From: an uncultured Acidobacteriota bacterium
Lineage (GTDB): Bacteria; Acidobacteriota; Thermoanaerobaculia; Gp7-AA8
DNA: 50,674 nt
Direction: 5' to 3'
NCBI GenBank assembly: GCA_937870635.1
Contig: CALMZP010000170.1
Coordinates: 1-50,674, forward strand
This document shows positions 1,698-47,456 of the stretch, one piece after another. The position numbers and the translations under genes are program-made. Each line of letters starts with the position of its first letter. Within the stretch, counting starts at the first letter, position 1. The notes under the pieces were generated by a model, which was given only the letters and a program-made list of their open reading frames with translations, was not told where the DNA came from and made no database searches.

Positions 1698-4600
1698 CTA
1701 CTTGATCATCACCAATTCATCGTTCTCCGCATCCACATACCAGATCCAGCCTTCGCAGTCCCGGCCGGTCATCGTGGCGATGGCGCGGCAGTAGCGACGG
1801 ACCTGCTCCTGGTCGGCGAGGAGGCGCTTGGGGGCTGGCGCGCCGCTCTTGTAGTCGACGACGATCTCGCGGCCGTCCTCGCGGATGAGACGGTCGATCC
1901 GCTTCTCGACGAGCTTTCCGGTCTCGTCGGTGAACGTAATCGGAAGTTCGCGGCCGAGGGTGGTGGCGCGTTCGAGGCGGGCGAAGGTGGGGGAGGCGCG
2001 GAGCGCGGTGATGCGCTTCCGCGCGATCTCGACCGCTGATGGTGACGCTGCAACCTCGCCCGCCAGGCGGGCCAGCAGCGTTTCGGAGTCAGAGGCTGTG
2101 TCCCATCGCTCGAGGAAGCGGTGGAGGAGGATGCCGGCCAGGCGATTCTTCGATGACGCGCGGGCCTGCGCTGCCTCGGCCGCGGTGAGCGCGGTTTCCG
2201 ATCGGGGCGGCGGTGCGAGCGATGGCTCGACGATCGCACCGGCGGCGAGCGACTCTTCGAGTGCAGCGTCACGAAGGCGGCGCACCGTCCGCCGGGTGAC
2301 GTCGCGGACCGCCACTTTCTCGAACGCAACCGGCAGTTCCGTACCCGCGACGTTCATTCTCTTCACAACGCGGCCGGGATCGGCCGGCCACAGCGAGTCG
2401 AATGAATCCTTCTCGAACCCGAACGGGGCCGCCAGGCATCCGAAGAAACCATTCTTCTGGAACGAGGATGTGTTGCAGACGAACACCACGTCGGTGATGG
2501 CGCGGGTCACGGCCACGTAGAAGAGGCGCCGTGTCTCCGCTTCCTCACGTTCGCCGGAGACGGATTTCAACCGCTGGCGGCCGGGCGTGAAGCGATAGTG
2601 AGCGGAGATGGACTGAGCGCGCCCAGTCATGACCAGGCTGCGCGGATCTTCCACGACGAAGAGGCTCTGCTTGTCACCGACCTTCGTCGGGAAGATGAGA
2701 TCGGGGAGGATGACGGTCTCGAATTCCAGCCCCTTCGCCGCGTGCACCGTCATGATGCGCACGGCGTTGCTGTCGTCGTCGGCGAGGCTCGGCTCGGTTT
2801 CGTCGGGCTCTTCGCGGCGCCGCTCGATCTCGTCGACGAACTGCCGGAGCGATCCGCCGATCTTCTCGTCGTACTGGAAAGCGATCGTGCGCAGGTGCTC
2901 GAGATGCCGCCGGGCCCGCCGTCCGTCGACCAGCGCGTCGTATGTGGCTTCGATCGCGGTCGATTCCACGAGCAGGTCGAGGGTACCGCTGACGGTGAGG
3001 TGCGCGGCGGCCTCGCGATAGGCATTGATGGCGACGAGAAACTCGCGCCACGCCTTTGGCGCATCGGCCGGTTCGCCCGCGAAGAGCGAGCCTTCCACGA
3101 TCTCCTGATCGGTCAGCGCGAAGTAGGGCGTTCTGGCCGCCGAGATCTCCGCGCCCCGATCGAACGGCCTCGCGATCGCGCGAAGCACCGCCACGGCGTC
3201 GACCGGAGCACGGCGTTCGAGGAACGCTTTCGTCGGCGGGAGCACGTACTCGATGCCGTAGCGGTCGAAGGTGTCGAGGTAATCGTCGAGCTTCGTCGTG
3301 CGGCGGAAGAGGATGGCAAAACGGCGCAGGTCTCTGCCCGCCCGATCGCGGTTCTCTTCGATCCACTCCGCCACCGCCTCGGCCTCGCTCAGGTGCCGGT
3401 CGGACTTCTCGTCGTGAGCCGAATGCAGGAAGGTGATGCGCGGACGGCCGTCGTCGGCGAAGTCGTGCTTTCCTGCCTGCAGCGCGCGATAAGGCGGGCG
3501 GAAGACGTTGGCGTCCGAGTCCGCGTTCGCGAATACGGCGGTGAAGATCGCGTTGATGGCGGCGAGCAGCGGCGGCTCGCTCCGGTAATGCTCGCGGATG
3601 ACGCGCTCTTCGGCTCCCGAACCGATGAGCCGCGCCGTCATCGATCGATACGTCTCCGGATCGGCGCGGCGGAAGCCGTAGATCGACTGCTTCGGATCGC
3701 CGACGACGGTGACTTTTCCCGGCACCCACGTCCCTGTGCTGTCGGTGCCGAGCTTTTCGAGAATGCGCGCCTGCGTCCGGTCGGTGTCCTGAAACTCGTC
3801 GACGAAGATGTAGTCGAACTGCTGGCGCACACGCTCGAGCACTGGGCGCTGCTGCAGAAGCTCCGCGGTGCGGAGAAGGAGATCGTCGAAGTCGACGACG
3901 CCGAGCTTCCGCTTCTCGCGATCGAGGAAGTCGATGAACCGCCGCGTCAGCGCATGGATGGCTACCGTCGAGCGATGCCTCAGCAGGCGCTCGTAGATCG
4001 AGCTTCCCTTGCTGTTCTCCGTACGCAGAACCAGGAGCGCCTTTTTCAGCGCGGGGTCGCGGGGAAGGTTCGCTTCGCGCATCGGCGTAGCGATCGGCGC
4101 GAAGTATTCGAGCCACTCATCGAGCGAAGCGCCGCGCGGCGCTACGGCTCCCTGGATGTAGCGGAAAACGGGCGCGCCCTCTGATTCCTTGATGCTGGAG
4201 ATATCGGCGCGGCGGATGATCGCAATGCTCTCGGTGAGGTCGCCCTCGATCTCGGCGAGCGACCCGAAGTCGTAGTCCGCCTCCATCAGAAGGTCGCGCC
4301 GCGCCAGGAGCGAGAAAACGAGGTCGCGAATCTGGAAAAGGTATCCGACGTGAGCGAGGAGGAACTCCCACTCCTGCAGCGATTGATTGGTCGGATGCAG
4401 GCGCGTCTCCTCGTCGAACCAGGCGTCGTAAAGCTGTCCGTAAAGGAGCGAGCGCTCGAACCCTTCGACGATCTTGAACCGCGGATCGAGGCCGGCCTCG
4501 ATCGGATAGCCGCGGAGGATGCTCTGGCAGAACGAGTGGATCGTCTGCGAACGGATCGAATCGATACGAGCCAGCTGGCGCTGACAGGCATCGCGGAACG

Positions 4601-4925
4601 CTTCGCGCCTTCCATCGGGGACGGTGAAGAGCGGGGTCGAGGAGCCGACCGGCCAGCACACACGCTCGTCATCGAAGTGCACCTCCAGCTCCGCGAGCGC
4701 CGCGTGAATGCGGTCGGCGATCTCACCGGCGGCCTTCTCCGTGAACGTCATCAGTACGATGCGCTCCGGCGCCAGATTCTCGTCCCCCAGCAGCAGCTTC
4801 AGTACCTCGGCCACGATCGCCGAGGTCTTGCCGGTTCCAGCGCCGGCTTCGACGACGAGATTCCGCCGCGACGGAGGAGGCGTCGTCGTCAGGAACGGCA
4901 GCGCGTGCTGCAGTGGCGTGCTCAT
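1698..4925 (-). CDS. addA: UvrD-like helicase/nuclease, AddA type
   Basis: ATP-dependent DNA helicase with a C-terminal nuclease, the motor subunit of an AddAB-like complex that resects double-strand breaks for RecA. In the 1075 residues I see Walker A GAGTGKT (28-34), helicase motif II VDEFQDT (375-381), motif III VVGDPKQSIYGFR (407-419), and motif V/VI regions TVHAAKGLEFETVILP and LFYVAVTRA. At the C terminus is a PD-(D/E)XK nuclease core (REIVVDYKSG). The length fits AddA or RecB. The start codon overlaps the addB stop as ATGA, so the pair is co-translated. The TAG stop is followed at once by heptamer array H1. RecB naming is possible, but the partner also has a nuclease domain, which favours AddA. 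Confidence 0.9.
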   Translation of the reverse strand: MSTPLQHALPFLTTTPPPSRRNLVVEAGAGTGKTSAIVAEVLKLLLGDENLAPERIVLMTFTEKAAGEIADRIHAALAELEVHFDDERVCWPVGSSTPLFTVPDGRREAFRDACQRQLARIDSIRSQTIHSFCQSILRGYPIEAGLDPRFKIVEGFERSLLYGQLYDAWFDEETRLHPTNQSLQEWEFLLAHVGYLFQIRDLVFSLLARRDLLMEADYDFGSLAEIEGDLTESIAIIRRADISSIKESEGAPVFRYIQGAVAPRGASLDEWLEYFAPIATPMREANLPRDPALKKALLVLRTENSKGSSIYERLLRHRSTVAIHALTRRFIDFLDREKRKLGVVDFDDLLLRTAELLQQRPVLERVRQQFDYIFVDEFQDTDRTQARILEKLGTDSTGTWVPGKVTVVGDPKQSIYGFRRADPETYRSMTARLIGSGAEERVIREHYRSEPPLLAAINAIFTAVFANADSDANVFRPPYRALQAGKHDFADDGRPRITFLHSAHDEKSDRHLSEAEAVAEWIEENRDRAGRDLRRFAILFRRTTKLDDYLDTFDRYGIEYVLPPTKAFLERRAPVDAVAVLRAIARPFDRGAEISAARTPYFALTDQEIVEGSLFAGEPADAPKAWREFLVAINAYREAAAHLTVSGTLDLLVESTAIEATYDALVDGRRARRHLEHLRTIAFQYDEKIGGSLRQFVDEIERRREEPDETEPSLADDDSNAVRIMTVHAAKGLEFETVILPDLIFPTKVGDKQSLFVVEDPRSLVMTGRAQSISAHYRFTPGRQRLKSVSGEREEAETRRLFYVAVTRAITDVVFVCNTSSFQKNGFFGCLAAPFGFEKDSFDSLWPADPGRVVKRMNVAGTELPVAFEKVAVRDVTRRTVRRLRDAALEESLAAGAIVEPSLAPPPRSETALTAAEAAQARASSKNRLAGILLHRFLERWDTASDSETLLARLAGEVAASPSAVEIARKRITALRASPTFARLERATTLGRELPITFTDETGKLVEKRIDRLIREDGREIVVDYKSGAPAPKRLLADQEQVRRYCRAIATMTGRDCEGWIWYVDAENDELVMIK

Positions 4926-7837
4926 GACCGCGACTCCAGCAGCGTACGGGGGTCGCCCGTCTCGAGAGCGGCGCGGCGCTCGTCAGGATCGTGCCTCGTG
5001 CGGCAGGAGTGGTTGACCGGGCAGTATTTGCACGAGTTGAAATCCTTGTCGAACTCGTTCGGGAAGGCAGGGAACGCGCCGGTCATGATCGCGTTCACGA
5101 AGATCTCCAGCGTCTGGCGCAGCCTCTCCTCGGTGTCGCCGAGCTCGAACGCGAATTTGTCGAGCGACGTCTCCGTCCTGGCGATCGGCTTGATCGTGCC
5201 CGACACCGCGGCGGGCGGCAGCTCGAAGAACGACGCCACCGCCATCGCGTAAAGCGGCAGTTGCAGCCGCACGCCACGATCGATCCTGGGACCGAGTCCT
5301 TCGTGGCGGAGGGCTTTGCCCGATTTGTAGTCGACGATGCGGTAGTGGCCGTGGCCGATGTCGATGCGATCGATTGTTCCTTCGACGCGAATCGCAACGC
5401 CGTTCGTCTCCACGATGAACGGCTCCGGGTGGTCGGGTGCGCGGCGCTTGTGCTTTGCGCCGAACCTGTATTCGAAGTGAGCCGGCATGAGCTCCCGCTC
5501 GAGGATGTCGGCCAGGTCGGCGGCCACGAACGCGCGCAGCACTCGTTTGGTGGCCCGGCGCTCCATGGCGCGCATCGAGCGGTTGAAGGCCGGGATCGTT
5601 TCCTCGAACCTGTCGAACTCCTCGTCGATGATCTGGTCGAGGCGCTCGCGAAGGACTTCGGTCAGGCGGGGCAGGTCGTGCGCCGCTTCCCGGATCTCCG
5701 ATTCGGGAACGGATCGATAGAAGCGCTCGAGCACCTGATGGTCGAGGATGCCCTTCTCGCGATGATTGATCTGCACCTCGCGATCGGGATTGTCGATGTC
5801 CGAAACGCCGAGGAGATGTTTGAGGAGGAACTTCTGCGGGCATTCGCCGAAGTCTTCCAGCTGCGTCGGCGAGATGGATTGCAGCGCCGCCCGCGTGCGC
5901 TCGTGGAGGAGGGGCGTGTCCACGTAGCCGTCGAAGGGGGAGCCGGAGCCGGCCAGCGCGAACAGCTGCAGTGAGCGAGTGGAGCGCGGGCGACCTCGCC
6001 CGCGATCGTGACTTCCCTCCTGCGACGCGGGCGAGGTCGCCCGCGCTCCACTTGCAAACGCCGAGAACCGCTTGAGGATCGCCGTCTTCTCAGCGGGAAC
6101 TTCCAGAATGGCGAAGGCCTTGAGAGCCGCCGAGGGGCGGAGCGGTTTGCCGAAGCCGTCGCTCGAGGCGTAGCTGAAATGGGTGGTCGTGCGGCCTCGC
6201 ATCAGTTCGAAGAGCAGCGTTTCTTCGTCGCGACCGTTGCCGATCTCGCGGATGCCGAGGGTGCGGCGGTCGGAGTCGGGGAGGAGGGGATCTTCGGTCC
6301 GGCGCTGCGGCAGCACGTCGTCCTGCATGCGGATGACGAACAGCTCCGCAAACGTGCGGCCGCGGAGGCGCATGACGTCGCCGAGCCATACGGTGGGGAG
6401 ATCGGAAACGGCGGGAGCGTCGAGCGTGACCTGCTCGATCGCGTCGACGACGAAGCGGGTGTCGAGCGGGCGGTTCCACCGCTCGGCACGGGCGAACATC
6501 CGCGCAATCTCGTCGAGTGCCTGCACGGCGGCGAGGTCGCTCGCATCCTCGATCCGAAATTGCTCGACGATCCGCGAGAGCGCGGACGCGTCGATGCGCT
6601 CGGTGAGCTTCTCGAGCTCCGCGACGAGGGCCACGTAATCCCTGATGACGAAGGAGGTCGCCGCGCGGTGCTCGAGCGTGGCGCCGCGGCCGCCGGCGAT
6701 GTGGGCGCGGCGCGTCTCGTAGTCGGCTTTGTCGGGATTGACGCGGGTCTGCGTTCGCAGGCCGCCGCGGACGAGCTCCAGAACCTCTGCGCGCGGAAAG
6801 TCGCGCTCGCGCAGCGACAGCAGCGTGACGAGGCCGCGGCCGAAGCGATGGGCGATGAGCGGGATGGAAGGGCGGGTGGAAAAGGCGAAGCCATGCGCGC
6901 GGGCGAAGCGGTCGAGGAGGGCGACGTCGTACGGCTCGAGAGATCGGGCCGCGACGCCGATCGACGAGGGATCGACGCCGGCGGCGAGGCGCGCGGCGAT
7001 GGCCACGGTGGTCGAGCGGGCTTCGTCCTCGCGTGTGCGATGTTCGTCGATCGACCAGGAGAGTTTGCGGATCTCGATCGACTTGTCGCGCGGAGAGAGC
7101 GGCGCGCCGGCAAAACGCTGCAGGAACGGGGTGGCGAAGGTATAGGCGGCGGCGCGGTGGGGATCGACCGGGACGTGGATCGCTTCCACCTTCTCTACTG
7201 CCTGTAGAGCTTCAATGACCGCAAACTGCGCTCCGGTCATGTCGTAAAAGCCCGCGACGATCTGGGGCGGGACGGCCGCGCCGGAGCGAACGGCCTTCGC
7301 CGCCGTGGCGAGAAGGTCGGCGGGATCGATCGCGCCGAGCTTCGCGATCAGCCGTTCATACTCCTCCCACGCTTTGACGATGGCGCGAAGGCGGTCGCGG
7401 TTGCGCAGCGCGTCCGATTTCGAGCGCGCGGCGATGCCGCTCACGGTCTGCCCCGCGTCGCGAACGTCGCGATAGGAACGCTCGAGCATCGCCGGCGTCC
7501 CGCGGGTCTCCATCATCGGATGATCCACGGTGCGCGCGGCCGCGCGCATGGCCAAACGCCGCTCCGCCGGCGTCGCGACCCTTGGATATTCACCACGGTC
7601 GTTGAGGATGCGCTGGGCGAGCGATTCGACCGTGTGCAGCCGCAGCGCGGCGATGCCGTTCGGCGCGCGCACGGCCAGCTCTGCCTGGATCGCGCGCGCG
7701 ACGCCACTCGACGCGACGATCACTTCCAGCTGCCACGGCGCGAGCGGATCGGCTCCCGCTCGCGATGTGGCGAGCCGCTCGGCGATCGAGCGGGCGAGGT
7801 CGTCGTATGTCTGGAGAAAAAGGGGAGAACCGGGCAT
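4922..7837 (-). CDS. addB: AddB-like nuclease subunit with 4Fe-4S cysteines
   Basis: Partner of the AddA-like helicase in break resection. The C terminus carries a PD-(D/E)XK nuclease (HYRIVDYKSGK) bracketed by AddB-type iron-sulfur cysteines: one in GECPQKF near residue 665 and three in CKYCPVNHSC (936, 939, 945). The N terminus has no GxxGxGKT. Instead it has VIVASSGVARAIQAELA, which resembles the degenerate RecC start, so this subunit probably does not hydrolyse ATP. Residues of about 596-620, rich in Arg, Ser and Gly, are encoded by a 75-bp palindrome inserted in frame (see 5978-6052). At 971 residues it is near usual AddB length. The start is the ATG at 7837. The stop overlaps the addA start by 4 bp. 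Confidence 0.85.
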   Translation of the reverse strand: MPGSPLFLQTYDDLARSIAERLATSRAGADPLAPWQLEVIVASSGVARAIQAELAVRAPNGIAALRLHTVESLAQRILNDRGEYPRVATPAERRLAMRAAARTVDHPMMETRGTPAMLERSYRDVRDAGQTVSGIAARSKSDALRNRDRLRAIVKAWEEYERLIAKLGAIDPADLLATAAKAVRSGAAVPPQIVAGFYDMTGAQFAVIEALQAVEKVEAIHVPVDPHRAAAYTFATPFLQRFAGAPLSPRDKSIEIRKLSWSIDEHRTREDEARSTTVAIAARLAAGVDPSSIGVAARSLEPYDVALLDRFARAHGFAFSTRPSIPLIAHRFGRGLVTLLSLRERDFPRAEVLELVRGGLRTQTRVNPDKADYETRRAHIAGGRGATLEHRAATSFVIRDYVALVAELEKLTERIDASALSRIVEQFRIEDASDLAAVQALDEIARMFARAERWNRPLDTRFVVDAIEQVTLDAPAVSDLPTVWLGDVMRLRGRTFAELFVIRMQDDVLPQRRTEDPLLPDSDRRTLGIREIGNGRDEETLLFELMRGRTTTHFSYASSDGFGKPLRPSAALKAFAILEVPAEKTAILKRFSAFASGARATSPASQEGSHDRGRGRPRSTRSLQLFALAGSGSPFDGYVDTPLLHERTRAALQSISPTQLEDFGECPQKFLLKHLLGVSDIDNPDREVQINHREKGILDHQVLERFYRSVPESEIREAAHDLPRLTEVLRERLDQIIDEEFDRFEETIPAFNRSMRAMERRATKRVLRAFVAADLADILERELMPAHFEYRFGAKHKRRAPDHPEPFIVETNGVAIRVEGTIDRIDIGHGHYRIVDYKSGKALRHEGLGPRIDRGVRLQLPLYAMAVASFFELPPAAVSGTIKPIARTETSLDKFAFELGDTEERLRQTLEIFVNAIMTGAFPAFPNEFDKDFNSCKYCPVNHSCRTRHDPDERRAALETGDPRTLLESRS
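5978..6052. repeat. P3 palindrome (GTGGAGC family) inside addB
   Basis: Two perfect 27-base arms (5978-6004 and 6026-6052) flank a 21-base loop. Each arm is itself nearly palindromic around GGGCGACCTCGCCC. The 75 bases equal 25 codons and keep the addB frame open. Related copies lie between genes at 7866, 27590 and 47378. Confidence 0.92.
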
Positions 7838-7865
7838 TAGTTATTGGAATTGTACGGGAGAAAGA

Positions 7866-7914
7866 GTGGAGCGCGGGCGATCCCGCCCGCGGGCGAGATC
7901 GCCCGCGGCTCCAC
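7866..7914. repeat. P3 palindrome (GTGGAGC family), intergenic
   Basis: A short copy: GTGGAGCGCGGGCGATC against its near complement ending GGCTCCAC. It lies in the 166-base gap between the divergent addB and vanZ-like genes. Nothing else recognisable is present there, although both promoters must be in this gap. Confidence 0.88.
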
Positions 7915-9449: not shown

Positions 9450-9525
9450 ATTTTGGATTTTGGATTTTGGATTTTGGATTGAACTGAAATCCAAAATCCA
9501 AAATCCAAAATCTAAAATCCAAAAT
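9450..9525. repeat. TTTTGGA heptamer array, inverted pair (H2)
   Basis: About four ATTTTGG units (9450-9480), a seven-base spacer, then five complementary units with one C-to-T change (9488-9525). It starts four bases after a stop codon and ends 38 bases before the next ATG. Confidence 0.95.
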
Positions 9526-10628: not shown

Positions 10629-10631
10629 GTC

Positions 10632-10693
10632 GATTTTGGATTTTGGATTTTGGATTGGGTCAAATCCAAAATCCAAAATCCAAAATCCAAAAT
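10632..10693. repeat. TTTTGGA heptamer array, inverted pair (H3)
   Basis: Left arm 10632-10656 and right arm to 10693, with a five-base spacer (GGGTC). It starts three bases after the ClpX-like stop codon and ends 14 bases before the ftsY ATG. Confidence 0.95.
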
Positions 10694-10707
10694 AGACTCA
10701 GCCCAAA

Positions 10708-11646
10708 ATGACTGACTTGCCAAAAACAGAGAAAACGTTCTTCGATAAGTTGAAGCGCGGCCTTTTCATGACTCACACCGAGATCATCGAGAAGGTCAAG
10801 GAGTCGATGACTCCTGATCTGCCCATCGACAAGAGCGCCATCGACGGCCTCGAGGAAGGGCTGCTCGGAGCCGACATTGGCGCGGAGCTGACCACCCGTC
10901 TGGTCGACCGGATGGAGGAGCGCGTACGCAACGAAAAGATCTCGTCGATGGACCGCCTGACGCAGGTCCTGCGCGAGGAGACGCGCGCGCTCATCCCTGC
11001 GCGGAAGCCGTCGTCGATCGACCTCGGCCAGGCGAAGCCGTTCGTGATTCTCGTGGTCGGCGTCAACGGGACAGGGAAGACCACCACGATCGCGAAGCTC
11101 GCCTCCCGCTGGAAGAACGAAGGCAGGAGCGTGATCCTCGGCGCTGCCGACACGTTTCGCGCTGCGGCGATCGAGCAGTTGCAGATGTGGGCCGACCGCG
11201 TCGGCGTCCCGATGGTGAAGCACAAAGCGGGATCCGATCCGGCAGCGGTCGCGCACGACACCGTGACTGCCGCGAAATCGCGCAATGCCGATGTGGTTCT
11301 CATCGACACGGCGGGCCGGCTTCACAACAAATCTCACCTCATGCAGGAGCTGTCGAAGGTTCGCCGTGTGATCGAGAAGGAGCTGCCCGGTGCGCCACAC
11401 GAGACGCTTCTCGTCCTCGATGGAACGACGGGTCAGAACGGCGTCAGCCAGGCGGCGGCGTTTCTCGAGGCGGCGAGCGTGACCGGCATCGTCGTCACGA
11501 AGCTCGACGGCACGGCGAAGGGCGGTGTGATCCTCTCGATCATGCGCCAGTTCGACATCCCGGTGAAGTTCGTCGGGGTGGGTGAGTCAGCCGAGGATCT
11601 GATTCCGTTCGATCCGGGGGCGTATGTAGATACGCTTTTCGAGTGA
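10708..11646 (+). CDS. ftsY: Signal recognition particle receptor FtsY
   Basis: SRP receptor GTPase that docks ribosome-nascent-chain complexes at the membrane. The NG core is complete: G1 VGVNGTGKTTT, the G2 insertion motif DTFRAAAIEQL, G3 DTAGR, G4 TKLDGTAKGG, and the closing GVGESAEDL. At 312 residues it lacks a long acidic A domain and begins with MTDLPKTEKTFFDKLKRGLF, as in short FtsY proteins with an amphipathic N-terminal helix. The start ATG follows heptamer array H3. Its stop overlaps the possible GTG start of the truncated downstream gene. Confidence 0.96.
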   Translation: MTDLPKTEKTFFDKLKRGLFMTHTEIIEKVKESMTPDLPIDKSAIDGLEEGLLGADIGAELTTRLVDRMEERVRNEKISSMDRLTQVLREETRALIPARKPSSIDLGQAKPFVILVVGVNGTGKTTTIAKLASRWKNEGRSVILGAADTFRAAAIEQLQMWADRVGVPMVKHKAGSDPAAVAHDTVTAAKSRNADVVLIDTAGRLHNKSHLMQELSKVRRVIEKELPGAPHETLLVLDGTTGQNGVSQAAAFLEAASVTGIVVTKLDGTAKGGVILSIMRQFDIPVKFVGVGESAEDLIPFDPGAYVDTLFE

Positions 11647-22278: not shown

Positions 22279-23820
22279 ATGCATTTTGCATTCTGCATTT
22301 CGGTTCTGATGCTCTTCGTGGATGACGCCGCCGCTTCGAACAGCCTTCTGGTCGAGCGCCGCACGATCCGCCTCGGCGAGCAGCTCACGATCATCGTTTC
22401 GCTCGAAGGAGAGTTCTCCGAGCTCGATGATGTGCGAGTGCCGCTGCACAATCTGACCATCTACGATCCGCCGTCGATCGCATCGGAGTTTTCGTGGATC
22501 AATGGCGAGATCATTCGCCGGAAGGTCCTTCGCTATCGCGCGAGAGCAGAGACAGCGGGACCGGCGCTGGTCGGTCCGCTGACACTGACCGCGGGGGCGC
22601 AGCGCGACATGCTGCCGGCGATCGCGATCGAGGTGCTCCCCGATCGCGCTGCCTCCTCGAACGACCCCGCCGTGATCCTTCGCGAACTGCTCGCCACCGG
22701 ACGCGAGCCCCTGTTCGTCGTGGCCGAACAGGATGCGCAGTCGGTCTACGCGGGCGAGCAGGTGATCGTCACCTGGTATCTCTACAACGCCGCGACCGTG
22801 CAGCGATGGCAGATCGGATCGATTCCGAAGCTGGCCGACTTCTGGGTCGAGGAGCTCGACGTGCGCAACGCGCGTGCGCAGACCGCCTTCATCGGCGATC
22901 AGGCCGTGCAGAAGATGGCCGTGCGGCGCGTGGCTCTGTATCCCTTGCGATCCGGCAGGCTGGAAGTGGGACCGCTGGAGGTGGAGGCGGCCATTCTCAG
23001 GCGGACGAATCGGGGGCCGTTCTCGCTTTTCGAAGGAAATCTGATCGAGGCCGGCTTCTCGTCGACGCCGATCTCCATCGACGCGAGGCCCCTTCCGGCC
23101 GGACCGGCGGTCGCGGCGGTCGGCGAGTTCGCCATGCGCTGTTCGCGGCCGAAACAGACCGGGGGCGGGCCGGTCGTGATCGAGGCCACCGTGACGGGAC
23201 GCGGAAATCTGCGCGCGGCCGAGGCCCCACGGTTCAGGACGCTGCCGGCGGGAGATGTGCAGCGCATCGAGCAGGGGGTGAGCGTGCAGCGATCGACGGA
23301 TGACGCGACGATGACCCGTCGCTGGCAGTACCTCATCTTTCCGCGAGCAGGAGGAACGATGGCGATGCCGGGCCTGCAGATGCCGGTGTTCTCGCCGGCC
23401 GCGGAGGCGCGGCGGCTCCTGCAGTGCTCCGCGTTGACGCTCGCGGTGACCGCGGCGGACCGGCCGCGCGTTGCGGCCGGCGCGCCAGCGAGTGCGAAGC
23501 CTGCGATGCACGTCGGGCCTTACGTTGCCGCGGGCGTCATCGCGCTCGCGTGTCTACTGTTCGTTCTGCCGTGGTGGCGCCGCCGCGCATCGCAGGAGCG
23601 TCAGATCCGCGCGATGATGACCGGCGACGGGATTCAGGAACGTGTCCACGCAGCGCTTGTAGATCGAGGGATCGATCCTGCCGTTCTGTTGAAGGAAGCC
23701 TCCGACCGCGGCGACGCGTACCGCTCGCTGCGTTCGCTCCTCGACGCCCTCGAGCGCGACCGCATCGAAGTCCCCGACCGCGACCGCGAGATCCGCCGCC
23801 GCCTCCGCGAATTGTTTTGA
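22279..23820 (+). CDS. batD: BatD-like membrane protein
   Basis: A 513-residue protein with a signal peptide, several beta-rich repeats, a transmembrane helix (YVAAGVIALACLLFVLPWW) and a basic helical tail. It fits the BatD 'oxygen tolerance' family that closes the operon. The ATG at 22279 lies in a short TGCATTT heptamer run, so MHFAFCIS is partly repeat-encoded. A GTG at 22264 would add five residues. There are 17 bases between the batC stop and this ATG, the only real gap among the Bat genes. The final TGA is the first three bases of the RAYT unit's terminal repeat. Confidence 0.83.
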   Translation: MHFAFCISVLMLFVDDAAASNSLLVERRTIRLGEQLTIIVSLEGEFSELDDVRVPLHNLTIYDPPSIASEFSWINGEIIRRKVLRYRARAETAGPALVGPLTLTAGAQRDMLPAIAIEVLPDRAASSNDPAVILRELLATGREPLFVVAEQDAQSVYAGEQVIVTWYLYNAATVQRWQIGSIPKLADFWVEELDVRNARAQTAFIGDQAVQKMAVRRVALYPLRSGRLEVGPLEVEAAILRRTNRGPFSLFEGNLIEAGFSSTPISIDARPLPAGPAVAAVGEFAMRCSRPKQTGGGPVVIEATVTGRGNLRAAEAPRFRTLPAGDVQRIEQGVSVQRSTDDATMTRRWQYLIFPRAGGTMAMPGLQMPVFSPAAEARRLLQCSALTLAVTAADRPRVAAGAPASAKPAMHVGPYVAAGVIALACLLFVLPWWRRRASQERQIRAMMTGDGIQERVHAALVDRGIDPAVLLKEASDRGDAYRSLRSLLDALERDRIEVPDRDREIRRRLRELF

Positions 23821-23847
23821 GGGTCACGTCTGCACTTCGCACTTTCT
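23818..23847 (+). repeat. RAYT unit left terminal repeat (P2 end)
   Basis: Thirty bases identical to the outer left arm of P2 at 16066-16095. The first three bases are the batD stop codon. Confidence 0.93.
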
Positions 23848-24808
23848 ATACCTGGTGTAGAGCGGCAAGGCATCGATCCGCTGTCATTCGCAGCTGGACG
23901 TCCTCGCCGAGTCGCTGCTGGCAGGTCCTGACCATTCTCGAGATTCCGCTGGTGCTTCGCACGCGGAGACCAGCAGCGATCGATCTCAGGTTGAGGCGTG
24001 GGCCGTACCAGGCGATCCAGGCTGCCAACATGCGAGCCGGACCTCCTCGACCGAAACGAACCTCGTTTTCGCTGACCGCCAGGCCATCGGCGACTATCCT
24101 GATGACGTCCGCCATCGTGACTGTAGACGGATCGCGCTGTTGGATCGGGTAATTATCGCAGCGGGGCTCGGATTCAATCCTTGAGCGCATCGACTCGACC
24201 CATGTCTCATCGCCCAGATAGATCTGCGAGACCACATCTTTCCATGGCGATCGCTCGATGCCGATTCCTTCGTCGACAAACCGGGAGTAATAGATGCGCG
24301 CAACGGCCGGATCGGGGGCAAAACACTGGAGGGTCCGCTCGACGGCGAGCCAGGAAGGCGGCTCGCGGAGGCCGGCAATGTCGGAGTGGCTGCTCCACGG
24401 GTAGTCGTTTGCGTGGGCCACGATGCCGGCTCTGACGGGATTCAGTGCGTCATACCGAATGACCTGAATCAGGTACGAGTCTTCCTGCACGAGACGCGAG
24501 TCGAAGCGTCCTTGAAACAGATGCCCGACCCGGCCGTGACGGCGATTGAAATCCTGCGCATACCGACTGTTCAAAGCGTGCATCCCATCGGAGAGATTCG
24601 GCTCCGTCAGGCCCACAAGGAAGTGGTAGTGGTTCGTCATCAGAACCCACTGGTAAAGCAACCAGCGATATCGCTCAACTACGCCGCCGAGAAGGTCTAC
24701 AAAATGAGTGCGGTCGCAGTCATCCAGAACGATATCTTTGCGCTCATTGCCACGTGCGGTGACGTGAAGCAAGGCGCCGGGGAAGTCCAGCCGCAACGTT
24801 CTTGTCAT
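23846..24808 (-). CDS. REP-associated tyrosine transposase (RAYT, Y1 HUH)
   Basis: A single-strand DNA transposase related to IS200/IS605 TnpA, thought to spread REP palindromes. In 320 residues I see the opening FPGALLHVTARGNERKD and the HUH motif in WVLMTNHYHFLVGL (His60, His62). The family stretch NRRHGRVGHLFQGRF follows, then EDSYLIQVIRYDALNPVRAG. Tyr112 in the last motif is my candidate nucleophile. The C-terminal 100 residues look like a helix-turn-helix DNA-binding extension (MADVIRIVADGLAVSENEV). The ATG at 24808 gives a full N terminus. The TAG stop overlaps the left terminal repeat. The reading frame is intact, so the enzyme may be active. Confidence 0.92.
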   Translation of the reverse strand: MTRTLRLDFPGALLHVTARGNERKDIVLDDCDRTHFVDLLGGVVERYRWLLYQWVLMTNHYHFLVGLTEPNLSDGMHALNSRYAQDFNRRHGRVGHLFQGRFDSRLVQEDSYLIQVIRYDALNPVRAGIVAHANDYPWSSHSDIAGLREPPSWLAVERTLQCFAPDPAVARIYYSRFVDEGIGIERSPWKDVVSQIYLGDETWVESMRSRIESEPRCDNYPIQQRDPSTVTMADVIRIVADGLAVSENEVRFGRGGPARMLAAWIAWYGPRLNLRSIAAGLRVRSTSGISRMVRTCQQRLGEDVQLRMTADRCLAALHQV

Positions 24809-24862
24809 GGCAAGAACGTACCTCGGTGGCCATGGTTCTGCTCAAAACGCTACTGTGTGTGG

Positions 24863-24892
24863 AGAAAGTGCGAAGTGCAGACGTGACCCTCA
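24863..24892 (-). repeat. RAYT unit right terminal repeat (P2 end)
   Basis: Exact inverted complement of 23818-23847. The last three bases, read on the minus strand, are the TGA stop of the M2 peptidase gene. Confidence 0.93.
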
Positions 24893-26866: not shown

Positions 26867-27589
26867 ATGCGTAAGACCACATCGCTCTTCCTGATTTTTC
26901 TCTCCTCCGCCACCCTTGCCGCTGCCGCCCCGCAGCGCCATCGGATCGTGAATCTCCCCACCGCGCCGCCGGTGACCCTGACCGGGCAGGTCCTCGACGC
27001 CACCGATGGAAGCGCGGTCGTGCAGGTCGAAGTGTCCGCCGGGCCCCATCGGTTCGCCCGCACCGACGGCGAAGGCAAATTCACGCTGCAGCTGCCGAAG
27101 GGGCTGGCCACGACCGTGACGTTCTCGCGCACCGGGTACGAGACACTGACTCAGAACCTGACCATCAACGGCGCGGAGAGCAAAACGTTTCAGCTCCGGG
27201 GGAAACCAACGGCCCGGATCGTGACCACCGCTGGCGCCACGCACATCATCGATTCCGACTCCCTCGAGTTCGGCTACGCCATTCCCTTCCTCGGCGTCCG
27301 CCACGATCCGGTTGCGAAGATGTGCCGCGCCGGCGGACAGCGGTTCGACCTGAATCGCAATGACGTCAAGCGCGTCCAGGGTCCCGCCGTCTCGACGACC
27401 GAAGCGGCTTGCTGCACGCGGGGCCCGATGACGGGCGCCGCTTTCACTCTCGCCAGCGGCGAGACGGTCACCGCCTACTTCATGGACTCGTGCGAGCACC
27501 CGCACACGCAGGTGTTTGCGCGCAACCACAAGACGTGGGAGCAGGTGATCGTCGATCTCGGCGACGTGAGCGAAGTGGTTCTGCCGTAA
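26867..27589 (+). CDS. Secreted protein with carboxypeptidase-regulatory-like domain
   Basis: A 240-residue exported protein: signal peptide MRKTTSLFLIFLSSATLAAA, then a beta-sandwich like CarboxypepD_reg (VTLTGQVLDATDGSAVVQVE, FARTDGEGKFTLQLPKG, FSRTGYETLTQNL). A C-terminal part with several Cys (KMCRAGG, EAACCTRGP, DSCEHPH) has no family I recognise. The frame is open far upstream, but the ATG at 26867 begins the signal peptide. It is divergent from the M2 peptidase with 78 bases between. The TAA stop touches palindrome P3. Confidence 0.75.
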   Translation: MRKTTSLFLIFLSSATLAAAAPQRHRIVNLPTAPPVTLTGQVLDATDGSAVVQVEVSAGPHRFARTDGEGKFTLQLPKGLATTVTFSRTGYETLTQNLTINGAESKTFQLRGKPTARIVTTAGATHIIDSDSLEFGYAIPFLGVRHDPVAKMCRAGGQRFDLNRNDVKRVQGPAVSTTEAACCTRGPMTGAAFTLASGETVTAYFMDSCEHPHTQVFARNHKTWEQVIVDLGDVSEVVLP

Positions 27590-27655
27590 GTGGAGCGCGG
27601 GCGACCCCGCCCGCGAATGATCAGGAGGGCGCGGGCGAGGTCGCCCGCGCTCCAC
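27590..27655. repeat. P3 palindrome (GTGGAGC family)
   Basis: Arms GTGGAGCGCGGGCGACC and its complement ending GCGCTCCAC pair around a short loop (AATGATCAGGAGG region). It starts immediately after the TAA stop of the secreted protein and ends 18 bases before the aldehyde dehydrogenase GTG. Confidence 0.93.
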
Positions 27656-47377: not shown

Positions 47378-47456
47378 GTGGAGCCGCGGGCGATCCGCCC
47401 GCCGGGGGTGACACGGTCATGCGTGGGACCGCGGGCGGGATCGCCCGCGGCTCCAC
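47378..47456. repeat. P3 palindrome (GTGGAGC family)
   Basis: Outer arms GTGGAGCCGCGGGCGATC and GATCGCCCGCGGCTCCAC pair around a larger loop containing CACGGTCATGCGTG. It lies between the convergent pruA and tonB genes, two bases after the pruA stop and seven before the tonB stop. Confidence 0.9.

Follow-up and report, generated by a model that had tools for sequence, protein, structure and literature searches.

GTAG-tagged REPs and REP dimers lie in frame in open reading frames of many bacteria (Di Nocera et al. 2013, PMC3733652). The in-gene dimers code for 20-30 amino acids. DNA repair genes such as recBCD, uvrA and UvrD are frequent hosts of in-gene REPs, and genes for tRNA synthetases are hosts too; in recB, nearly the same position is occupied by REPs that differ between two Xanthomonas species. 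A GTGG variant of the tag is described in the same study, in which CGTC-tagged repeats, RPE-4 and RPE-6 among them, had no associated transposase genes. Since in-gene REPs, among them those in recBCD, have already been reported, the kind of phenomenon that we describe here is known.

The present case concerns the element P3 in a stretch of 50,674 nucleotides from an uncultured Acidobacteriota bacterium, hereafter the window. It resembles the in-gene GTAG REPs (PMC3733652) in that single REPs and dimers lie in frame within repair and synthetase genes. Unlike them, it has a GTGG-AG tag and a host from an Acidobacteriota family, it strongly favours one peptide frame, and different repeat families have entered a single AddB linker in at least seven genera. 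Rickettsia palindromic elements (Ogata and Claverie, as cited in PMC3733652), which were reported earlier than the in-gene GTAG REPs, are, like P3, found in frame in housekeeping proteins; this parallel, drawn in an earlier sequence-only reading of the window, is apt, and P3 is in frame in many other genes. Yet the Rickettsia elements carry a CGTC tag (PMC3733652), whereas the tag of P3 is GTGG, and in contrast to the RPE-4/RPE-6 type P3 has an associated RAYT gene, with P3 REPs at either end. Known REPINs and RAYTs (PMC3116915, PMC2817692) share with P3 the hairpin made of two inverted REPs, the RAYT with adjoining REPs and the high copy number; P3 differs in that about a quarter of its elements lie inside coding genes. 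What is new is an Acidobacteriota case with a likely mobiliser, a frame preference and one AddB linker refilled by many repeat families. Thus, besides the Rickettsia elements, transposase-linked palindromes are written into housekeeping proteins genome-wide, with a bias in the surviving peptide.

A REPIN in frame in addB

The genome analysed here (G000; G001, G017 and similar codes denote other genomes of the family) comprises 4.52 Mb in 171 contigs, and its contig C170 is the window. The features relevant to the analysis are the following:

1698..4925, minus strand: addA, 1075 aa, element-free control gene (ORF listing and element search)
4922..7837, minus strand: addB, 971 aa, PD-(D/E)XK nuclease domain at residues 654-946 (PF12705, 3u44 profile)
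5978..6052, minus strand: REPIN, two inverted P3 REPs, in frame in addB (perfect 27-nt arms, phase 0)
5978..6004, plus strand: REP 1, AGTGGAGCGCGGGCGACCTCGCCCGCG (match to genome consensus)
6026..6052, minus strand: REP 2, inverted copy (reverse complement of REP 1)
about 7865..7907, unstranded: P3 REP pair, intergenic, directly upstream of addB (P3 motif matches)
27589..27655, unstranded: P3 REPIN, intergenic (P3 motif matches)
47431..47448, unstranded: single P3-like REP, intergenic, between convergent genes (P3 motif matches)

The sequence-only reading had described a 75-bp element with perfect 27-base arms that adds 25 codons to addB without breaking the frame and recurs at three intergenic sites of the window. 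All of this was borne out. The two arms are exact reverse complements separated by a 21-nt spacer, and they are nested in a longer 30-nt pair that is 97% complementary. The 75 bp correspond exactly to codons 596-620 of addB, in codon phase 0 and stop-free, and encode the residues SGARATSPASQEGSHDRGRGRPRST. In shuffled window sequence the expected count of the P3 core motif is 0. The gene product is identified as AddB by its PF12705 domain and by similarity at the profile level to AddB of B. subtilis (3u44); its closest AddB matches come from metagenome-assembled genomes of uncultivated Acidobacteriota/Thermoanaerobaculia. The insert ends about 33 residues N-terminal of the PD-(D/E)XK domain. 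As the AlphaFold model of AddB has a pTM of 0.41, our use of it is confined to one feature, that residues 595-688 are modelled with low confidence; accordingly, the P3 segment is predicted, at low confidence, to be disordered.

P3 is a REP/REPIN family with a candidate mobiliser

A census of P3 over 1.21 Mb, taken as stretches (27% of the genome), gave 176 REP core copies in 122 groups, and the P3 pattern has 231 forward-strand matches across the 4.52 Mb. The REP consensus is (a)GTGGAGCGCGGGCGACCTCGCCCGCG, two inverted copies of which form the addB element, and the core-aligned consensus reads aGTGGAGCGCGGGCGACCTCGCCCGCG. On the GTGGAG side each base is conserved at 89-98%, with a sharp 5' GTGG tag that is separated from the palindrome by two additional bases (AG); conservation ends right beyond the opposite end of the palindrome. 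Both single REPs and inverted pairs (REPINs) are common. The census contains 25 groups in plus-minus arrangement, and among 27 pairs measured for their arms only four, including the addB copy, have perfect ones. The family thus combines the tag, the high dispersed copy number and the inverted pairs of REPs and REPINs with a mostly extragenic location and a RAYT gene with adjoining REPs, and the 75-bp addB element is a REPIN, a non-autonomous mobile palindrome. Since other genomes of the family gave only weak, short matches to P3, it is essentially specific to this genome within the family.

The RAYT gene lies on contig C139 (L060) and encodes a 180-aa protein that scores 104 bits on the NCBIfam model NF047646 for REP-associated tyrosine transposases (cut-off 80 bits). 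P3 REPs are present at both ends of the gene, and the predicted C-terminus of the protein runs into a REP (...SGARATSPAPSRR). Because of these flanking REPs the C139 RAYT is the likely mobiliser of P3. In a related genome, G007, two copies of the element family that occupies its AddB linker have a RAYT-like gene about 30 bp away.

The window itself also contains a transposase gene (23846-24808), which was considered as P3 mobiliser but not retained, since 30-bp inverted repeats of its own accompany it and there is no P3 beside it. The corresponding unit (23818-24892) codes for a RAYT-like tyrosine transposase of 320 aa (72.6 bits on NF047646, below the cut-off) and is bordered by perfect 30-bp terminal inverted repeats (23818-23847 and 24863-24892). 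In this respect it resembles the TIR-flanked 'TIRYT' transposases of Acidobacteria (PMC3733652).

P3 copies in frame in other genes

A search of coding regions for further P3 copies, as suggested by the sequence-only reading, relied on a home-made codon model trained on long ORFs, so that single weak cases may be wrong. Of 102 P3 elements, 27 are in open frame and flanked on either side by coding signal, compared with 51% of random positions, and 36 are noncoding on both sides, compared with 6.5%. P3 therefore avoids genes, yet it is far from absent in them. The in-frame hosts include LeuRS (two sites), PheT, GltX, PyrD, MutS2, the dihydrolipoyl acyltransferase PDH-E2 (two linkers), an aconitase-family enzyme and UvrD. 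One dihydrolipoyl acyltransferase (L106 15416-16807; C31:95416-96807) carries two P3 inserts, one in each of two inter-domain linkers.

Alignments with homologues revealed different consequences for the host proteins. In PyrD, the solved homologue shows a 9-residue gap at the P3 peptide; GluRS and PheRS aligned to solved structures gave no clear gap at the P3 insert. In LeuRS and MutS2, the REP residues take the place of variable loop residues, with little net gain in length. The proposal that P3 can create new protein segments was therefore upheld in part: a repeat-derived insert does lie in the linker ahead of the AddB nuclease domain, but its being a useful new part of the protein is conjectural, with disorder predicted (at low confidence) for the segment and loop replacements seen in LeuRS and MutS2.

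All six reading frames of the REP are open. The frame reading GARATSPA, the least charged one, accounts for 17 of 33 REPs (about 3e-5 if use were uniform, an approximate figure since the two REPs of one pair are not independent). This bias fits selection after insertion for harmless peptides.

The AddB linker in orthologs of the family

AddB orthologs from across the class are too diverged for a comparison of the linker, and the comparison was made at the family level, with orthologs of 46-57% identity and two more distant ones of 37-40%. In the alignment the 25 residues are missing from the family orthologs, which contradicts the notion of a native AddB sequence; the comparison, which involves orthologs from outside the genus of the window genome, suggests a 75-bp insertion event in addB. 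Both the sequence and the length of the linker vary greatly. Without its element the linker of the window genome would comprise about 35 aa, which is close to the 31-33 aa of the shortest element-free linkers, those of G011 and G017; that of G015 has 50 aa.

In 10 of 15 readable orthologs, the same linker contains another palindromic repeat. All ten elements are multicopy within their respective genomes; most have tens of copies, and for that of G001 only a handful are listed. GTAG/GTGG-tagged inverted REP pairs are found in G001, G002, G010 and G014, longer palindromes in G012 and G016, and direct plus inverted repeats in G013; the repeats of G012, G013 and G016 are not clearly GTAG/GTGG REPs. 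G006, G007 and G008 have a repeat family in common, which in G008 is in reversed orientation. Differences occur even within genera, as the elements of G012 and G013 are unrelated and G016 has an element where G017 has none. Five orthologs, among them G011, G015 and G017, are element-free.

For comparison, we inspected addA in the same loci and found none of these element families in it (in some loci only part of addA was covered). At three control sites that carry P3 in the window genome, two cases were found in about 44 orthologs, both of them at LeuRS site 1 (G016 and G001), with no elements among orthologs at LeuRS site 2 and the MutS2 site. The excess at AddB is significant by genome (10/15, Fisher p = 2.6e-6); counted by genus, the excess over LeuRS site 1 alone has p = 0.07. 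From these comparisons the AddB linker looks like a recurrent landing site for mobile palindromes of several families. The recurrence is probably due to disorder and tolerance of the linker, and presumably not to a choice of this site as target.

The two LeuRS cases, from two other genera, concern the editing-domain region. There, LeuRS of G016 (L210/L213) has an unrelated palindrome with 34-nt arms at the P3 site, and that of G001 (L207) has another unrelated palindromic repeat.

Origin of the linker insertions

It is reasonable to propose that a RAYT-mobilised P3 REPIN landed in a tolerant AddB linker that is a recurrent landing site, a reading of the sequence data to which we give a probability of roughly 80%. 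The C139 HUH/Tyr RAYT, its gene bordered by the same REPs, would most likely have mobilised the REPIN, which would have landed, presumably by chance, in AddB, in the flexible linker that joins the helicase-like part to the nuclease domain. It would then persist, presumably as a neutral insert, in this disordered, length-tolerant linker because all REP frames are open, its length is a multiple of three and almost any sequence can be accommodated there. In other lineages of the family the same linker would have been hit by their own repeat families, which makes it a recurrent landing site.

The insertion may also be an old one with later turnover in the linker, as about five presence/absence changes are needed on the tree. 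In a stricter version, a single ancestral repeat entered the linker before the family split and was overwritten by the current REP family of each lineage through gene conversion or concerted evolution. Most main-clade genera do have an element, and those of G002 and G010 share a 20-bp stretch (95%) with the same reading of the tag. However, the linker sequences are otherwise unrelated, the orientation in G008 is opposite to that in G006, the frames of G001 and G002 differ, and G017, G015 and G011 lack an element, which renders this scenario unlikely. Still less credible is a functional palindrome, i.e. a very stable mRNA hairpin that delays translation at the domain boundary, or DNA that modulates addB expression, with selection keeping the hairpin while its sequence turns over. 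Such a role would account for the fact that 11 of 16 orthologs, counting the window genome, have a hairpin-forming repeat although the sequences differ, and the strong RNA fold of the addB element (-78.5 kcal/mol, z -8) and its rare perfect arms are in line with it; but perfect arms are equally expected of a young insert, P3 occurs in many unrelated proteins as well, and the element-free orthologs include G017 from the same genus as G016. It would be similarly speculative to regard the linker as a preferred landing or retention site where the hairpin is kept for AddB folding, expression or the handling of palindromic DNA, a conserved trait derived from unrelated mobile elements. Finally, repeats can be misassembled in a 171-contig assembly, yet a native segment that resembles P3 by chance, or an assembly artefact, is extremely improbable in view of 75 bp with arms of exact REP consensus, orthologs that lack the segment, many other in-frame copies and an unbroken frame.

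With its linker, AddB offers a series of inserts, made by nature, that differ from lineage to lineage but share one position in the enzyme. Swapping and deleting them could show whether they are ballast, neutral for the protein, or material from which new protein parts arise.

Other repeats

Extra segments that look repeat-like are seen at other AddB positions in G006, G007, G012 and G013. In AddB of G012 (L084), about 93 extra residues lie inside the nuclease domain near query residue 829, directly before the RIVDYKSG motif, and resemble interspersed repeats (CHPELPEPRSGEGQRGIPR...). In the window, A+T-rich intergenic repeats at about 1630-1700, 9450-9510 and 10630-10730 represent a separate repeat family of this genome; they appear as FWILDFGFWILDF / QNPKSKIQNPKS in the ORF listings.
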